A DNA stretch of 64,000 bases from Bartonella sp. DGB1 (lineage in GTDB: Bacteria > Pseudomonadota > Alphaproteobacteria > Rhizobiales > Rhizobiaceae), in the NCBI RefSeq assembly GCF_041345015.1, contig NZ_CP166769.1:186001-250000 (forward strand), read 5' to 3'. The translations under genes were made by a program, and so were the position numbers. This document shows positions 1 to 34,465 of the stretch, piece by piece (position 1 is the stretch's first letter; each line of letters starts with the position of its first letter). The notes below the pieces were generated by a model, which saw nothing but the letters and a program-made list of their open reading frames with translations, was not told the origin of the DNA and did not search any database.

Positions 1-150
1 AATATAATAAGCGATTCTTTCTTTTTCACATAAGTTACATGGTTTATAACCAATATATTCTATTATAAGAGCTACTGCTATTATAAATAATAATAGCAAT
101 CCTAATAATAGAGTTAAATTATGTTTGTGTAAAAGATTCTTTTTTTTCAT
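1..150 (-). CDS. dsbB: DsbB-type disulfide bond formation protein, N-terminal part (cut by window edge)
   Basis: Reading the minus strand from the ATG at 150 gives a Lys-rich start, one long hydrophobic segment (about residues 12-32) and then the motif PCNLCEKERIAYY, which matches the first periplasmic CxxC of DsbB. DsbB is the inner-membrane quinone-linked protein that reoxidises DsbA. Only about 50 residues lie in the window. The start lies 3 bases after the stop of the upstream YqaA-like gene, so the two are probably translated from one transcript. The CxxC context is strong, but the second Cys pair is outside the window. Confidence 0.75.
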   Translation of the reverse strand, partial: MKKKNLLHKHNLTLLLGLLLLFIIAVALIIEYIGYKPCNLCEKERIAYYI

Positions 151-10501: not shown

Positions 10502-11431
10502 ATGAAAATTTTTAAAAAAATTAGCGTTGCAGTTTGCATGGCAGTTGGCTTACTGACGTCTTCTTTTTGTTTCGCTGAACAAATACAGGTGAAACATGCG
10601 CAAGGTGTGACAAATGTAACTGTTAATCCTAAACGGGTTATAGTATATGATTTAGGTATATTAGATAATATGGATTTAATTAATGCAACTGATAATATTG
10701 TTGCTTTGCCTGAAATTGAATTTCCTAAATATTTGAAAGATCTAGAAAATATAGAAAAAGCTGGGTCTTTATTTAGTCCAGATTATGAAAAAATTGCAGC
10801 TTTAAAGCCTGATTTAATTATTATTGCAGGGCGTTCTTCTAGAAATTATGAACAATTATCTAAAATGTTTCCAACTATTGATTTGAGTTTACGTAATGAA
10901 CATACAGTAGAAGATTCTATTGCTAATATGCGTTTGTTAGGAAAAATATTTAACAAAACAAAAAATGCTGAAAGAGCTATTAAAGCTCTGGAAAGAGACA
11001 TTAGTTATGTGAAAAGTGTAACTAACAAAAGAGGTGATGCTTTAGCTTTAATAACTACTGGTGGTAAAATAAATCTACTTAGTCCTCAATCTAGATTTGG
11101 TCTGTTGTTTTCTAATTTTGGTATAGAAAATGCTCATAAAAAATTAGGCACTGATTCTGCACATGGACAAACAATATCATATGAATTTATTTTAAATGAA
11201 AATCCTGATTGGTTGTTTGTATTAGATCGTGATAAAGCAATTAACAATGGTGGAACACCAGCAACAAAATTGTTAGATAATTCTATTATTCGTAAAACTA
11301 AAGCTTGGAATAAAAAGCAAATAGTTTATTTAGATCCACATGGATTTTATTTAGCTACTGGTGGTTTTCAGTCCCTGCAGACTAATATAGATATAATCTT
11401 AGAAGCTTATCAACAGCAAGCTAAAAAATAA
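10502..11431 (+). CDS. Iron-siderophore ABC transporter, periplasmic binding protein (YclQ/CeuA/VctP-like)
   Basis: This 309-residue protein has an N-terminal signal peptide (Lys-rich start, hydrophobic to about residue 24, cleavage likely at CFAEQ). No lipobox Cys follows directly, so it is probably free in the periplasm. It shows the FecB/PBP2 pattern: NPKRVIVYDLGILDNMDL near residue 40, SPDYEKIAALKPDLIIIAGRS, and NPDWLFVLDRDKAI. This subgroup binds catecholate or petrobactin-type siderophores. It is followed after about 40 bases by two FecCD-type permeases. The exact ligand cannot be told from sequence. Confidence 0.88.
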   Translation: MKIFKKISVAVCMAVGLLTSSFCFAEQIQVKHAQGVTNVTVNPKRVIVYDLGILDNMDLINATDNIVALPEIEFPKYLKDLENIEKAGSLFSPDYEKIAALKPDLIIIAGRSSRNYEQLSKMFPTIDLSLRNEHTVEDSIANMRLLGKIFNKTKNAERAIKALERDISYVKSVTNKRGDALALITTGGKINLLSPQSRFGLLFSNFGIENAHKKLGTDSAHGQTISYEFILNENPDWLFVLDRDKAINNGGTPATKLLDNSIIRKTKAWNKKQIVYLDPHGFYLATGGFQSLQTNIDIILEAYQQQAKK

Positions 11432-11470
11432 CTATAGAATAATCAGAATAATCAGAATAAGCTAAATATT

Positions 11471-12451
11471 ATGATAAACATTAAAAATAATTCTATTTGG
11501 TGGATAATTTTAGTATTTAGTTTATTCATTTCTTTGTTTTTTGCCAGTTTATTTATCGGTATTTCTTCCATAACTTTGATAGATTTGTTACTATTGGATG
11601 GATTTGCTTGGGATATTTTATTGGCTACTAGAATACCACGCACCGTAGCATTAATATTATCAGGTAGTTCTCTTGCAATTGCAGGGGTTATTTTTCAGAG
11701 TTTAACACAAAATAAATTTGTTGAACCAAATACATCAGGTACCACAGCTGCTGCTGCTTTGGGTTTACTGATTACTTTGATATTTTTTCCTGATATAACT
11801 ATTTTAGGCCGAATATTAGTTACCACTATATGTGCTTTAATTGGTGCTTTTTCTTTTTTAATCATTTTGCAAAATTTACCGTTAAAAAATGCATTAGTTG
11901 TACCTTTGGTAGGTATAATTTTTACTTCTATTTTAAATTCTATAGCTACTTTTATCGGTTATAAATTTAATTTGTTGCAATCATTATTAGCATGGAAAAC
12001 AGGTGATTTTGCATTAATATTAGCGGGCAGATATGAATTAATTTGGTTAACGGCTATAGTTTGTATATTTGCTTATTTATTCGCTCACAAATTTACTATT
12101 GCTGGTTTAGGAAGAAATATAACTGAAGGTTTAGGGGTTAATTATCGTGTAACGGTAACCTTAGGTATTATTATGGTTTCTATTATTTCGGCTTTAACTA
12201 TGACTATTGTTGGCTCTATTCCCTTTGTAGGTTTAGTAATTCCTAATTTTGTTTCATTGTTATTAGGAGATAATTTAAAAAAGTCTTTGCCTATTGTCGC
12301 TTTGTCAGGAGCAATTTTATTATTAATTTGCGATATTTTAGGAAGAATAATCGATTATCCATATGAAATACCAATTGGCACGATGATGGGTGTAATAGGC
12401 AGTGGGTTATTTTTAATAATAATTTTATCACAAAAGAAACATGTGGGTTAA
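11471..12451 (+). CDS. Iron-siderophore ABC transporter permease 1 (FecCD family, YclN/VctD-like)
   Basis: A 326-residue FecCD-family permease with about nine membrane segments. Diagnostic parts are ATRIPRTVALILSGSSLAIAG near residue 55 and, near the end, the coupling-helix region PFVGLVIPNFVSLLLGDNLK, which contacts the ATPase. It would form a heterodimer with the next gene product in the inner membrane. Its end overlaps the start of the next gene by 11 bases. The binding protein gene lies about 40 bases upstream, so the three form one operon. Confidence 0.9.
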   Translation: MINIKNNSIWWIILVFSLFISLFFASLFIGISSITLIDLLLLDGFAWDILLATRIPRTVALILSGSSLAIAGVIFQSLTQNKFVEPNTSGTTAAAALGLLITLIFFPDITILGRILVTTICALIGAFSFLIILQNLPLKNALVVPLVGIIFTSILNSIATFIGYKFNLLQSLLAWKTGDFALILAGRYELIWLTAIVCIFAYLFAHKFTIAGLGRNITEGLGVNYRVTVTLGIIMVSIISALTMTIVGSIPFVGLVIPNFVSLLLGDNLKKSLPIVALSGAILLLICDILGRIIDYPYEIPIGTMMGVIGSGLFLIIILSQKKHVG

Positions 12452-13445
12452 TATGTTAAGAAACACTGATAAACAACATCAGCAAGAACATGTAAAAGCG
12501 TTAACTATTATATTTAGATTAGCTATAATAACTATAATTTCTATGGTTTTATTTATGACTATAGGGGTAGTAGGTGATTGGAGTTTTATTATTCCATTCA
12601 GAGCTGGTAAATTATTAGTGCTAACTGTAGTATCATGTGCTATTGCAATGTCTACCGTGGTTTTTCAAAGTTTAACTCATAATAATATTTTAACACCATC
12701 TATTATTGGTTTTGATAAATTATATATTTTAATACAAACATTAATAGCTTTTTTCTTTAGTAAATCTTATATAAGTTTAGCTAATTCTAATTGGGTTTTT
12801 TTTATAAATGTTATAGTGATGACAACTTTAAGTAGCTTATTGTTTCACTGGTTATTTTTATCACAAAAACGTAGCTTGCATGTTGTGTTATTAGTTGGAA
12901 TTATTTTAGGTAGTTTTTTTTCAAGTTTGAATGTTTTTATGCAGCGTATTTTGGAGCCTGACTTATTTGCTGTGTTACAAGATAATAGTTTTGCAAATTT
13001 TAATAACTATAAAATGTCTTTAGTATATTTAGCTGCCTTAGCAGTAATACTTATGGCGATTTTATTATGGTATAAATTACCCGAATTAGATGTGCTTTCA
13101 TTAGGGAGAAATAATGCTATAAATTTAGGGATGGATTATTCATTAACTATGTTTCAATTTTTAATTATAGTTAATATTTTAGTAGTTTTTTCTACCGCAT
13201 TAGTAGGACCTGTTACATTTTTTGGTCTTATAGTAGTACATTTAGCTAGAATTATTATTAAGACTTCTAAACATAAATATTTACTTCCAGCTGCTTGTTT
13301 AATTGCTATTATGACGTTGGTAATTGGACAAATAATCTTAGAAAGAATTTTTAATTTTAATACTGCTTTATCTATAATTGTAGAATTTATTGGGGGTCTA
13401 TTATTTTTATTTTTATTATTTAAAGAGTCTAAAATTAAACATTAA
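12441..13445 (+). CDS. Iron-siderophore ABC transporter permease 2 (FecCD family, YclO/VctG-like)
   Basis: A 334-residue second permease, paralogous to the preceding one. It has RAGKLLVLTVVSCAIAMSTV in place of the usual RLPR motif, then VVFQSLTHNNILTPSIIGFD, and the C-terminal coupling region TALVGPVTFFGLIVVHLARI. These are features of the YclO/VctG subgroup. The first Met (12441) overlaps the previous gene by 11 bases; the ATG at 12453 is an alternative. The usual fourth gene, the ATPase, is absent: murA converges from the other strand one base after the stop. Confidence 0.88.
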   Translation: MWVNMLRNTDKQHQQEHVKALTIIFRLAIITIISMVLFMTIGVVGDWSFIIPFRAGKLLVLTVVSCAIAMSTVVFQSLTHNNILTPSIIGFDKLYILIQTLIAFFFSKSYISLANSNWVFFINVIVMTTLSSLLFHWLFLSQKRSLHVVLLVGIILGSFFSSLNVFMQRILEPDLFAVLQDNSFANFNNYKMSLVYLAALAVILMAILLWYKLPELDVLSLGRNNAINLGMDYSLTMFQFLIIVNILVVFSTALVGPVTFFGLIVVHLARIIIKTSKHKYLLPAACLIAIMTLVIGQIILERIFNFNTALSIIVEFIGGLLFLFLLFKESKIKH

Positions 13446-22988: not shown

Positions 22989-23527
22989 TGAAGATAGATA
23001 ATTTACCGGAAGGTTTTTACCTTAAGACAGAAAATGCGTCGCTTGTTGAGAAAAAAGATGCTTTTTTAGATGAGTGTTTTTTTTCAAGGCGCAGCGGTCC
23101 ATGTCATGCTATTAGATTAGAATCTTCGCAAATTTTATCTTTATCTTATTTGGTTTTTTCTGACAAAGATGAAATAATTGCTAACATTCAAATTTGGTCG
23201 ATAACGGCGGGAGATGTGCCGGCCGCTTTAATGGGACCGTTGGTTGTAGATCCAAAATTTCGTGGATTAGGACTTGGAAAATATTTGACTAACTTAGTTA
23301 TTGAACAAGCTAAAGCAGAAAATATTGGTGCTTTATTTTTAATAGGGGATCGTGCTTATTATGAAAAATTTGGTTTTTCTCATCAATTAACTAAAAATTT
23401 TTATATACCGCAGACGTTTGGCAGTTATGATCCTAATAGATTCCTTGCAATGGAACTTAAGCAAGATTATCTAAAAAATATTTCTGGTTGTTTATTGCCA
23501 GCTAAAATAACAATTTTTTCTAATTAA
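22988..23527 (+). CDS. GNAT family N-acetyltransferase
   Basis: A 179-residue GNAT protein. Acetyl-CoA binding motif A is LMGPLVVDPKFRGLGLGKYL, followed by GALFLIGDRAYYEKFGF, typical of the YhbS-like group. The start overlaps the stop of the decarboxylase gene (TAATG). This pairing recurs in alphaproteobacteria, which suggests, but does not prove, that it acts on a polyamine or related metabolite. The 3' end overlaps the converging znuB by 8 bases. Confidence 0.88.
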   Translation: MKIDNLPEGFYLKTENASLVEKKDAFLDECFFSRRSGPCHAIRLESSQILSLSYLVFSDKDEIIANIQIWSITAGDVPAALMGPLVVDPKFRGLGLGKYLTNLVIEQAKAENIGALFLIGDRAYYEKFGFSHQLTKNFYIPQTFGSYDPNRFLAMELKQDYLKNISGCLLPAKITIFSN

Positions 23528-24320
23528 ATTTCTTCTTTATAATATGATAGAAAGTTGTAATAAAGAATAGGCAACTAGCTGCTACTACTATCGTTGGGGC
23601 AGCTGGAGGATCCCAATATAATGACACAAATAATCCGATAATAGATGATAAAATAGCAAAGATAGATGATAAAATAGCCATTTGCGTAGGGCTAGTAGAA
23701 AAATATCTTGCTGTGGATGCGGGTATTATTAATAAGGCGGTAAATAATAATATTCCGATAATTTTCATAGCTATAGCAATTAAAATAGCTAACATAAAAG
23801 TAAATGTTATCCGTAGCATAGAAGATGATATTTTTTCAGCTTGCGCTAATGATGGTGAGATGGTTTCTAATATTAAGATTCTCCAAATTTTTGCTAGCCA
23901 TAATAATAATAATACCCCCCCTCCCCAAACAAGAATTATATCTTCTATAGAGGTGGCTAGTATATCACCAAATAAATAAGACATTATGTCAATTCTTACC
24001 CACGTCATAAAGCTGAAAATCACTAAACCTAGCGCTAGAGTAAAATGTGAAATTATACTTAAGATAGTATCATTGCTAAAATTATGTAATCGTTGAAAAA
24101 ATAGTAGCAATAAAGCGCTTATAATAGCTATAATAAAAATAGCTAGATTTAGATTTATTTTTAATAAAAAAGCAAAGACAATACCAAGAATAGCAGAATG
24201 AGCCATAGTATCACCTAAATAAGCCATTCTACGCCAAATTAATAAACAGCCAAAAGGTCCGGCAATCAAAGCTAGTCCACTAGCAGATAAAAGGGAATAA
24301 ATAAAAAAAGTTTCATACAT
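23520..24320 (-). CDS. znuB: Zinc ABC transporter permease
   Basis: A 266-residue ABC-3 family permease with about eight membrane segments. Signature parts: AGPFGCLLIWRRMAYLGDTMAHSAILG near the N-terminus and LLFTALLIIPASTARYFS in the coupling region. It lies 5 bases after znuC. Together with ZnuC and ZnuA it forms the inner-membrane zinc importer. Its 3' end overlaps the GNAT gene on the opposite strand by 8 bases. Confidence 0.95.
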   Translation of the reverse strand: MYETFFIYSLLSASGLALIAGPFGCLLIWRRMAYLGDTMAHSAILGIVFAFLLKINLNLAIFIIAIISALLLLFFQRLHNFSNDTILSIISHFTLALGLVIFSFMTWVRIDIMSYLFGDILATSIEDIILVWGGGVLLLLWLAKIWRILILETISPSLAQAEKISSSMLRITFTFMLAILIAIAMKIIGILLFTALLIIPASTARYFSTSPTQMAILSSIFAILSSIIGLFVSLYWDPPAAPTIVVAASCLFFITTFYHIIKKKFN

Positions 24321-24325
24321 TAAAA

Positions 24326-25030
24326 TTATACCTGCGAATCACGAATTTTATGCATAGAAGGAGCCGGGCAAAGTAAAAATTGTTGAGAGAATTCTTTAGA
24401 ATCGCCATTGAATATAATTTTACCTTCTTTTAAGTGAATAATTTTATCACTGATATTTGATATTATCATTAAATCGTGAGAAATTAAAAAGATAGAAATT
24501 TTTATATTATTTTTTACCCAAGAAAGTAATTGATAAAGTTCAGTTTGACCTTCACTATCAATATTTTGAATTGGTTCATCTAGAATCAATAAATCTGGGC
24601 GTCTAGCAATTGCACGTGTCAGAAGAACCCTCTGTTTTTCTCCGCCGGATAAAGTATGCATTTGTTGATTTTTTAATGATGTAATTTTAGTCTTTTCTGA
24701 TAAACTAGAAAGTAATTCCTTATCTAGAGCGAATGGTAGATTCAGAAAATCATTCACGGTTAGTGGTAAAATTTCATCGAATTGTAAATATTGAGGAAGG
24801 TAAGAAATGTTAAGTTGGTTAGAAAAAGATATTTTTCCAGCTGATGGTTCACGTAAACCTAACAAAAGTTTTGCAATAGTGCTTTTGCCCGCTCCATTGT
24901 GACCGATCAGTGTAATAAATTCGTTTGTGTTTATTCTGAAATTAATATTAGATAAAATTTGATTCTTTTTTTGCCCAAAGTATATATGTTCAAAGTTTAC
25001 TAGATAATGATCTTTTGTATTGATAATCAT
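24326..25030 (-). CDS. znuC: Zinc ABC transporter ATP-binding protein
   Basis: A 234-residue ABC ATPase. Walker A is GHNGAGKST, the signature is LSGGEKQRVLLTRA, and Walker B is DLLILDEPIQNID, followed by the SHD switch (FLISHDLMI). The order znuC-znuB on one strand, divergent from znuA, is the usual zinc-uptake layout. It is the only ABC ATPase in the window, so it is not dedicated to the orphan siderophore permeases by position. Confidence 0.95.
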   Translation of the reverse strand: MIINTKDHYLVNFEHIYFGQKKNQILSNINFRINTNEFITLIGHNGAGKSTIAKLLLGLREPSAGKISFSNQLNISYLPQYLQFDEILPLTVNDFLNLPFALDKELLSSLSEKTKITSLKNQQMHTLSGGEKQRVLLTRAIARRPDLLILDEPIQNIDSEGQTELYQLLSWVKNNIKISIFLISHDLMIISNISDKIIHLKEGKIIFNGDSKEFSQQFLLCPAPSMHKIRDSQV

Positions 25031-25155
25031 AATTGTTATTGATTCGCTTAGGGGTATGGTTTATCTTGAGGGTAATTTCTAATATTAAGTTTACTTATAT
25101 TAAGGTTATTTTTTATTTTATACAATAGTTCATATCTTAATTTTTGAGGAAATAA
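25031..25155. promoter_or_regulatory. znuC/znuA divergent intergenic region with an imperfect inverted repeat
   Basis: The spacer between divergent zinc-uptake genes must hold both promoters. An imperfect palindrome, TAATATTAAG and CTTATATTA, lies at about 25080-25102. It does not clearly match the Zur box that I know from alphaproteobacteria, so an operator role is a guess. Confidence 0.3.
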
Positions 25156-26568
25156 ATGAAACAAAATTCTTTAATTATAAAAATGATAATATTATTATTT
25201 GGTTTATGGGTGTCTTTAACAGCTGTAAATGCACATAATAACATTAAATCAACTAATAAAGTACCTAATGTTGTAGTATCCATTGCACCATTATATTCGT
25301 GGGTCTCCGCTGTAATGGGTGATCTTGGAACTCCTAAATTATTAGTTACAGGAAATAATTCACCTCATGGATATAATTTGCGTCCTTCTGATATGAACTT
25401 ATTATCAAAAGCAGATGTTATATTTTGGGTAGGCGAAGAGTTAGAGCATTTTCTTATAAAGCCTTTAGCAAATTTAGGGAAATCTACTAAGGTTGTATCC
25501 TTAATAAATACACCTAATTTATTATTATTGAGCCCTAGATCTACAGGAGATTTTGAACATCACCATCATCATGAGCATGGGCATAAACATGGAAACTCAG
25601 AAGAGCATGAATGCACTTGTGATGAAGAAGACGGTCATGGACACAAACACAAACATGGCGAATCTGAAGAGCATGAATGTCTTTGTGATGAGGAAGACGG
25701 TCATGGACACAAGCATAAATATGGCGAATCTGAAGAGCATGAATGTCTTTGTGATGAGGAAGATGGACATGGACACAAACACAAACATGGCGAATCTGAA
25801 GAGCATGAATGTCTTTGTGAGGAAGAAGATGGTCATGGACACAAACATAAACATGGCGAATCTGAAGAGCATGAATGTCTTTGTGATGAGGAAGATGGAC
25901 ATGGACACAAACATAAACATGGCGAATCTGAAGAGCATGAATGTCTTTGTGATGAGGAAGATGGACATGGACACAAACACAAACATGGCGAATCTGAAGA
26001 GCATGAATGTCTTTGTGAGGAAGAAGATGGTCATGGACACAAACATAGCTCTATAGATTCACATTTTTGGTTAGATCCTGTGAATGCAAGGATTTCTGTA
26101 TTGCATATAGCTAAGGTTTTAAGTGCTCAGGATCCCAAGAATGCGGCTACATACAAGAAGAATGCTGGCATCTACATAAAAAAGTTGGAAACTTTAGAAA
26201 AAAATATTGCAGAAAAATTATCGTCAATAAAAGATAAGCCATTTGTGGTAGAACATGATGCTTACCAGTATTTTAGTAATCGTTTTAATTTAAATATAGT
26301 AGGAGCAGTTATGCTTGATCCTTCTCACGGTGTTGGAGCTAAACATTTAGATGAAATACGTAGAAAAATTAAGAGGTTAGACGCAAAATGTATTTTTGCT
26401 GAACCGCAGTTTTCTCCTAAAATGATTGATTCTATAGCTAAAGATTTAGGTATTAAGGTAGCTATCTTAGATCCATTAGGAGCCAATTTACCTTTAAATT
26501 CGTCTTTATATTCGTCTTTATTGTTTGGTTTAAGTGGTTCTTTGTTGGAGTGTTTAAATATTAATTAA
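25156..26568 (+). CDS. znuA: Zinc ABC transporter substrate-binding protein with a His/Cys tandem-repeat loop
   Basis: A 470-residue cluster 9 (A-I) metal-binding protein, against about 310 for ordinary ZnuA. Residues 1-26 are a signal peptide. The N-lobe has VVVSIAPLYSWVSAVMGD and the metal-ligand His in NNSPHGYNLRPSD. An expanded metal loop at about residues 134-298 starts with five consecutive His, then seven 22-residue repeats. After it come SHFWLDPVNAR, FVVEHDAYQYF and the last ligand region CIFAEPQFSPKM. The core looks intact and functional. The loop in normal ZnuA gathers zinc; here it is several times longer and contains paired cysteines. The ribosome site is TTGAGGAAATAA. Confidence 0.95.
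   Translation: MKQNSLIIKMIILLFGLWVSLTAVNAHNNIKSTNKVPNVVVSIAPLYSWVSAVMGDLGTPKLLVTGNNSPHGYNLRPSDMNLLSKADVIFWVGEELEHFLIKPLANLGKSTKVVSLINTPNLLLLSPRSTGDFEHHHHHEHGHKHGNSEEHECTCDEEDGHGHKHKHGESEEHECLCDEEDGHGHKHKYGESEEHECLCDEEDGHGHKHKHGESEEHECLCEEEDGHGHKHKHGESEEHECLCDEEDGHGHKHKHGESEEHECLCDEEDGHGHKHKHGESEEHECLCEEEDGHGHKHSSIDSHFWLDPVNARISVLHIAKVLSAQDPKNAATYKKNAGIYIKKLETLEKNIAEKLSSIKDKPFVVEHDAYQYFSNRFNLNIVGAVMLDPSHGVGAKHLDEIRRKIKRLDAKCIFAEPQFSPKMIDSIAKDLGIKVAILDPLGANLPLNSSLYSSLLFGLSGSLLECLNIN
25597..26046 (+). repeat. 66-bp tandem repeat inside znuA (6.8 units, 22 residues each)
   Basis: Each unit encodes a variant of SEEHECLCDEEDGHGHKHKHGE. Seven SEEHEC starts are seen; the first has ECTC, the fourth and seventh CEEE, and the third unit HKHKYGE follows the second. 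The last unit stops after 18 residues. At DNA level the units are nearly identical, showing recent amplification or homogenisation. Because 66 is a multiple of 3, long open frames also appear on other frames here; they are not genes. Confidence 0.97.
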
Positions 26569-26695: not shown

Positions 26696-26721
26696 CCGAG
26701 CTTTATTGCTCGGCTTTTTTT
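26696..26721 (+). terminator. Rho-independent terminator or leader attenuator ahead of the rRNA operon
   Basis: CCGAGC and GCTCGG form a 6-bp GC-rich stem with a 6-base loop, followed by C and seven T. It could end znuA transcription or act on transcripts from the promoter at 26611. Confidence 0.75.

Positions 26722-34341: not shown

Positions 34342-34465
<124 letters not shown>

Follow-up and report, generated by a model that had tools for sequence, protein, structure and literature searches.

In E. coli ZnuA, the periplasmic protein that delivers zinc to the ZnuBC importer, the zinc ligands include His60, His143 and His207 (PMC8900738). The C. koseri protein has at least three zinc sites with its His-rich loop and one without it (PMC8900738), and the His loops of other ZnuA proteins bind zinc at micromolar strength (PMC4542158). 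Deletion of the ZnuA His loop in P. denitrificans left zinc acquisition in vivo unimpaired, and there is no cross-talk between importer components (PMC7731109). The role of the loop is still called enigmatic (PMC8900738, PMC7731109). Here we describe a ZnuA from Bartonella sp. DGB1 in which the loop is long, tandemly repeated and rich in cysteine as well as histidine. The gene was analysed within a stretch of 64,000 nucleotides (contig NZ_CP166769.1, positions 186,001 to 250,000), referred to below as the window.

The znuA gene, its product and its surroundings

The genes and sites concerned are listed here by their position in the window.

1..120, minus strand: part of the DsbB gene (genome 185665-186120), which crosses the window edge; PF02600, E 2.5e-25
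23520..24320, minus strand: znuB, importer permease; best NCBIfam match ZnuB, 209.3 bits, under the equivalog cut-off of 284
24326..25030, minus strand: znuC, importer ATPase, divergent from znuA; best NCBIfam match ZnuC, 167.4 bits, under the equivalog cut-off of 306
25031..25155, plus strand: znuC/znuA intergenic region, searched by a simple palindrome scan
25156..26568, plus strand: znuA, a complete open reading frame of 470 aa with an ATG start
26696..26720, plus strand: stem with a T run, resembling a terminator, in the interval from znuA to the 16S rRNA gene

A GAGG motif resembling a Shine-Dalgarno sequence lies directly 5′ of the znuA ATG. The product is laid out as a signal peptide (about residues 1 to 26, placed by eye), an N-lobe (residues 38 to 134), the repeat loop (135 to 297) and a C-lobe (298 to 470). 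It scored 207.7 bits against Pfam ZnuA (cut-off 29), and no other Pfam family passed its curated cut-off. In a sequence comparison with the PDB it was closest to the ZnuA proteins of C. koseri and E. coli. Both results bear out the initial annotation of the protein as ZnuA. The best fold match found by Foldseek was E. coli ZnuA (2osv), with a target TM-score of 0.91. The top NCBIfam model was the ZnuA equivalog NF007091, at 231.6 bits; its cut-off of 268 bits, which is an annotation threshold and does not define the family, was not reached because the long insert splits the match.

It was found that H71, H303 and H367 align with the three E. coli histidine ligands and are invariant in relatives, and that Pro70 stands at the position of the E. 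coli ligand Glu59, as it does in nearly all aligned relatives. The only cysteines outside the loop are C412 and C466, also invariant in relatives, which we take to form the core disulfide of ZnuA. As judged from its sequence, the protein is the zinc-binding component of an ordinary ZnuABC importer, for which import and high-affinity zinc binding are predicted. Near the metal site, at window positions 26251-26346, the core deviates from that of relatives, with Glu366 instead of a nearly invariant Phe before the ligand His367; His391 and His397 sit in the loop that follows the next strand.

The divergent znuCB-znuA order is common to two relatives. No Fur-family protein (PF01475) was detected in the whole genome by a search whose controls were positive in 13 of 14 genomes, and the scan of the intergenic region gave no strong long palindrome; on these two grounds, regulation by Zur was rejected. 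Because the Fur family was not found, the control of zinc, iron or manganese in this genome must rely on other regulators or on none. ZinT was likewise not detected in the genome. The dsbB-like gene that had been noticed at the window start is indeed DsbB, and a DsbA-like thioredoxin is encoded as well.

The genome is a single contig of 1.4 Mb, and other genomes of the family are mostly larger. A further metal-binding protein, encoded at 768 kb, is part of a Mn/Fe-type importer, and window positions 10502-13445 encode an ABC importer of the iron-siderophore or B12 type (binding protein and FhuB/BtuC-like permease). The rRNA operon of the window (from about 26505) is matched by a second one (L033 7034-12000, at about 257 kb in the genome) at 99.8% identity over 4,974 bp, the match extending to the end of the L033 stretch compared. 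This match begins within the 3′ end of znuA; about 20 codons at the close of the gene were copied with the upstream region of the operon. Immediately behind a tRNA-Met gene, at 34419-34465, the 7-bp unit ATCTTCC is repeated perfectly in tandem 6.7 times.

The repeat loop and its history

The following features lie within znuA.

25558..26046, plus strand: metal-loop DNA, encoding residues 135 to 297 (163 residues, from HHHHH up to the start of SSIDSHFW)
25597..26046, plus strand: seven 66-bp units of consensus SEEHECLCDEEDGHGHKHKHGE, the last ending after HGHKH (from Tandem Repeats Finder, TRF, and a unit table)
25721..25849, plus strand: 129-bp segment that recurs exactly 198 bp (three units) further on, without mismatch; first copy
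25919..26047, plus strand: second copy of this segment, left by a recent duplication of three units

The loop opens with HHHHHEHGHKHGN and continues with seven 22-residue units. The units begin at 25597 and then every 66 bp, and their extent is that given in the initial annotation, 25597-26046. TRF reported one array (25585-26045, period 66, 7.0 copies, 93% matches, no indels), the score of which, 768, far exceeded any other in the window. When translated back into a degenerate DNA pattern, the motif H-x-C-x-C-[DE]3-x-x-H-x-H gave seven exact matches on the plus strand of this genome, and none in reverse or with a control pattern. The TRF score and these seven matches, with none in the controls, exclude a chance origin of the array. 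A minus-strand open reading frame with exactly the coordinates of the array (25597-26046) and +2-frame open reading frames over it were regarded as shadows of the repeat.

The 163 residues of the loop include 41 His, 14 Cys, 44 Glu and 12 Asp (56 acidic residues). Each unit has two Cys, eight acidic residues and 5 His, or 4 His in the case of units 2 and 7, and both Cys are present in all seven units. The earlier estimates of about 45 His in the loop and of six to seven per unit were therefore too high, and the repeat loop itself is confirmed. In the AlphaFold model, which was built from 43 aligned sequences, the core was confident and the pLDDT was below 50 for nearly all of residues 134-296; the loop is therefore predicted to be disordered, at the position usual for a ZnuA loop.

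Units 3 and 4 are the same as units 6 and 7, being identical over 129 bp at the 198-bp shift, and this identity marks the three-unit duplication of 198 bp as recent, in agreement with an earlier suggestion that copy number had lately changed. Among the units there are 11 variable sites, 7 of which are synonymous, whereas random single changes in the unit would give about 16-25% (P from 0.0005 to 0.007, depending on a transition bias, kappa, of 1 to 4). Because the variable sites in duplicated units are not independent, this excess is suggestive. Together, the mostly synonymous substitutions and the recent 198-bp duplication suggest selection on the protein unit while its copy number changed. 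The GC content at third codon positions is the same in the loop and the C-lobe (0.23), so the loop has evolved in the composition of its own genome; a horizontal origin of the array is thus unsupported by composition. Derivation of the unit from elsewhere in the genome was ruled out, as protein and pattern searches matched only znuA.

Loops of other ZnuA proteins

The rarity of this loop was evaluated by gathering ZnuA genes from relatives, the order and the phylum and excising the loop between the two lobes. Because the sample was picked by similarity to the window protein, and in some cases by length, and is mostly from Alphaproteobacteria, the absence of CxC loops holds for this sample and is unproven outside it. 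In 248 other distinct ZnuA proteins the loops had a median length of 49 residues and a 99th percentile of about 127, and the longest reached 294, so that the loop described here, which had been called unusually long, is the second longest. Loops with five or more His were found in 227 of the other proteins; these comprise 13,017 residues, of which 3,749 are His and none is Cys, compared to 14 Cys in the window loop. None of the 248 other proteins has a loop cysteine, which upholds the view that paired cysteines are unusual at this position.

Repeat expansion, on the other hand, is ordinary, since about half of the surveyed loops carry in-frame tandem arrays (127 of 247, the window's included, at a TRF score of 50 or more), 47 of them with at least three copies. 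The most extreme is the ZnuA of L234 (164-1894), from another family of the phylum, with a 294-residue loop containing 98 His and encoded by an array of an 18-bp unit (KGHDDH) in about 45 copies; one residue is X, from masked or ambiguous bases. The premise of the initial annotation that ordinary ZnuA proteins have one short loop is therefore not sustained. It is the cysteine pair, and not the expansion, that is exceptional in the window loop. The survey also shows that in many Pseudomonadota the ZnuA loop is a region where repeats expand, in some cases to far more than the 12-50 residues quoted in PMC4542158.

Searches beyond the survey agreed with this result, and the possibility raised at the outset that many ZnuA proteins carry the CxC unit was not borne out, as the unit was absent from the other ZnuA proteins and genomes searched. 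No relative of the unit peptides was found among 84,980 species, each represented by one genome, or in 385 genomes of the class; in the latter search the statistic may under-call low-complexity matches. The degenerate DNA pattern had no match in 397 other genomes of the phylum. A PDB sequence search with the unit gave no match even at E 5, the unit had no match in Pfam, and a plasmid search gave nothing beyond matches less than 60% identical. A literature search for a ZnuA with a CxC or Cys-rich loop found nothing relevant. The CxC units are a genuine variation on a known protein, and as yet a unique one.

Possible roles of the loop and its known counterparts

On balance, we think it probable that the loop is a periplasmic arm that captures zinc at several sites and buffers it. 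In this reading the loop, predicted to be disordered, has grown by in-frame tandem duplication of the 66-bp unit, each copy of which supplies two Cys, four to five His and neighbouring acidic residues. Zinc would be collected in the periplasm at up to seven sites of the Cys2His2 type if the thiols are free, or otherwise at His/Asp/Glu sites. Zinc held by the loop would raise the local level of the metal around the site between the lobes, from which ZnuB is supplied. Because known His loops add zinc sites, so long an arm would be expected to keep several zinc ions close to the site of transport, and because neither a Fur-family regulator nor ZinT was found, a buffering role would not be redundant with these. 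The tolerated loop deletion in P. denitrificans means that the loop may matter little. Unit sites of the Cys2His2 type would probably be tighter than His-only sites, making the arm more a buffer than a feeder. Reduced Cys2His2 sites would probably also exceed the nanomolar core site in zinc affinity, and the loop would therefore be a sink instead of feeding zinc onward, except where transfer is helped or the cysteines are oxidised. A bolder version, which we consider unlikely, is that of a metallothionein-like zinc store inside the importer, in which Dsb oxidation of seven tandem Cys2His2-type sites would release zinc to the core and replace the missing Zur control. We infer export of the protein, metal binding by its cysteines, buffering and any redox control; the loop may also serve in metal storage, redox switching or competition for host metal.

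It is possible, though doubtful, that all 14 cysteines are oxidised by DsbA/DsbB to disulfides, within CxC pairs or between units, which would compact and protect the loop and leave zinc to the His and acidic residues, or would couple zinc release to Cys oxidation as a redox switch. The genome encodes both DsbB and a DsbA-like thioredoxin, the number of cysteines is even and they are paired in every unit, and ZnuA already has the conserved pair C412/C466. Nevertheless, disulfides within CxC are strained and rare, and the His and acidic residues packed about each pair resemble a metal site more. Clusters of Cys and His favour soft metals, and the loop might bind Cd, Cu(I) or Ni, for protection or for discrimination against the wrong metal, and not mainly zinc; as it sits in a ZnuA core beside znuCB, and the genome's other metal-binding protein is a Mn/Fe-type one, we regard this as very improbable.

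The array might alternatively be a neutral minisatellite in a loop that tolerates nearly any polar sequence, where a chance Cys version was spread by unequal recombination in a reduced genome. The loops of relatives are hypervariable and prone to repeats (in-frame arrays in 127 of 247), the duplication of 198 bp took place recently, and P. denitrificans tolerates loop deletion (PMC7731109). However, neutrality accords poorly with the synonymous excess among the units, with the retention of both Cys in 7/7 of them, and with the lack of any Cys in the 13,017 residues of 227 other His-rich loops, a lack that points to selection normally acting against Cys in such loops; we therefore hold a neutral origin to be quite unlikely. 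That the repeat number, or the entire array, is an artefact of assembly seems scarcely credible. Near-identical 66-bp units are difficult to assemble, and the exact copy number could be wrong, but the differences between units are mostly synonymous, frame and phase are kept without indels, and similar arrays occur in the ZnuA of many other genomes.

A natural loop with seven Cys units in countable copies provides a sharp test of whether the ZnuA loop buffers zinc, and equally of the behaviour of thiol sites in a periplasm that is oxidising.

In comparison with known systems, the protein is not a metallothionein, that is, a small free-standing Cys-rich protein of a known family, as its Cys units lie within a 470-aa ZnuA in which no Pfam family but ZnuA passes its curated cut-off. 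Arms of the SlyD or metallothionein type presumably resemble the window loop in having Cys pairs with His, in being disordered and in likely binding several metal ions; they are cytoplasmic or free-standing, unlike the loop of this ZnuA. The long His loops of L234, L172, L008 and L188 are like it in place, in their in-frame tandem DNA repeats and in their His and acidic residues, whereas they are without Cys, their units are usually based on Asp and His, and most of these units are shorter. In Ca. Liberibacter asiaticus, which has ZnuABC, zur and fur are reported missing (PMC3360030), just as no Fur-family protein was detected in this genome; PMC3360030, on which this comparison rests, mentions no His-rich loop or repeat. 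The closest system remains ZnuA of group II, cluster A-I, with a His-rich loop (E. coli, Salmonella, C. koseri), with which the window protein shares the core fold, the three His ligands, the Cys pair, the position of the loop and the adjoining znuCB. It differs from E. coli ZnuA in having Pro70 in place of the ligand Glu59, and from the ZnuA loops that have been studied, which are 12-50 aa long (quoted in PMC4542158), in having a loop of 163 aa with seven CxC units.
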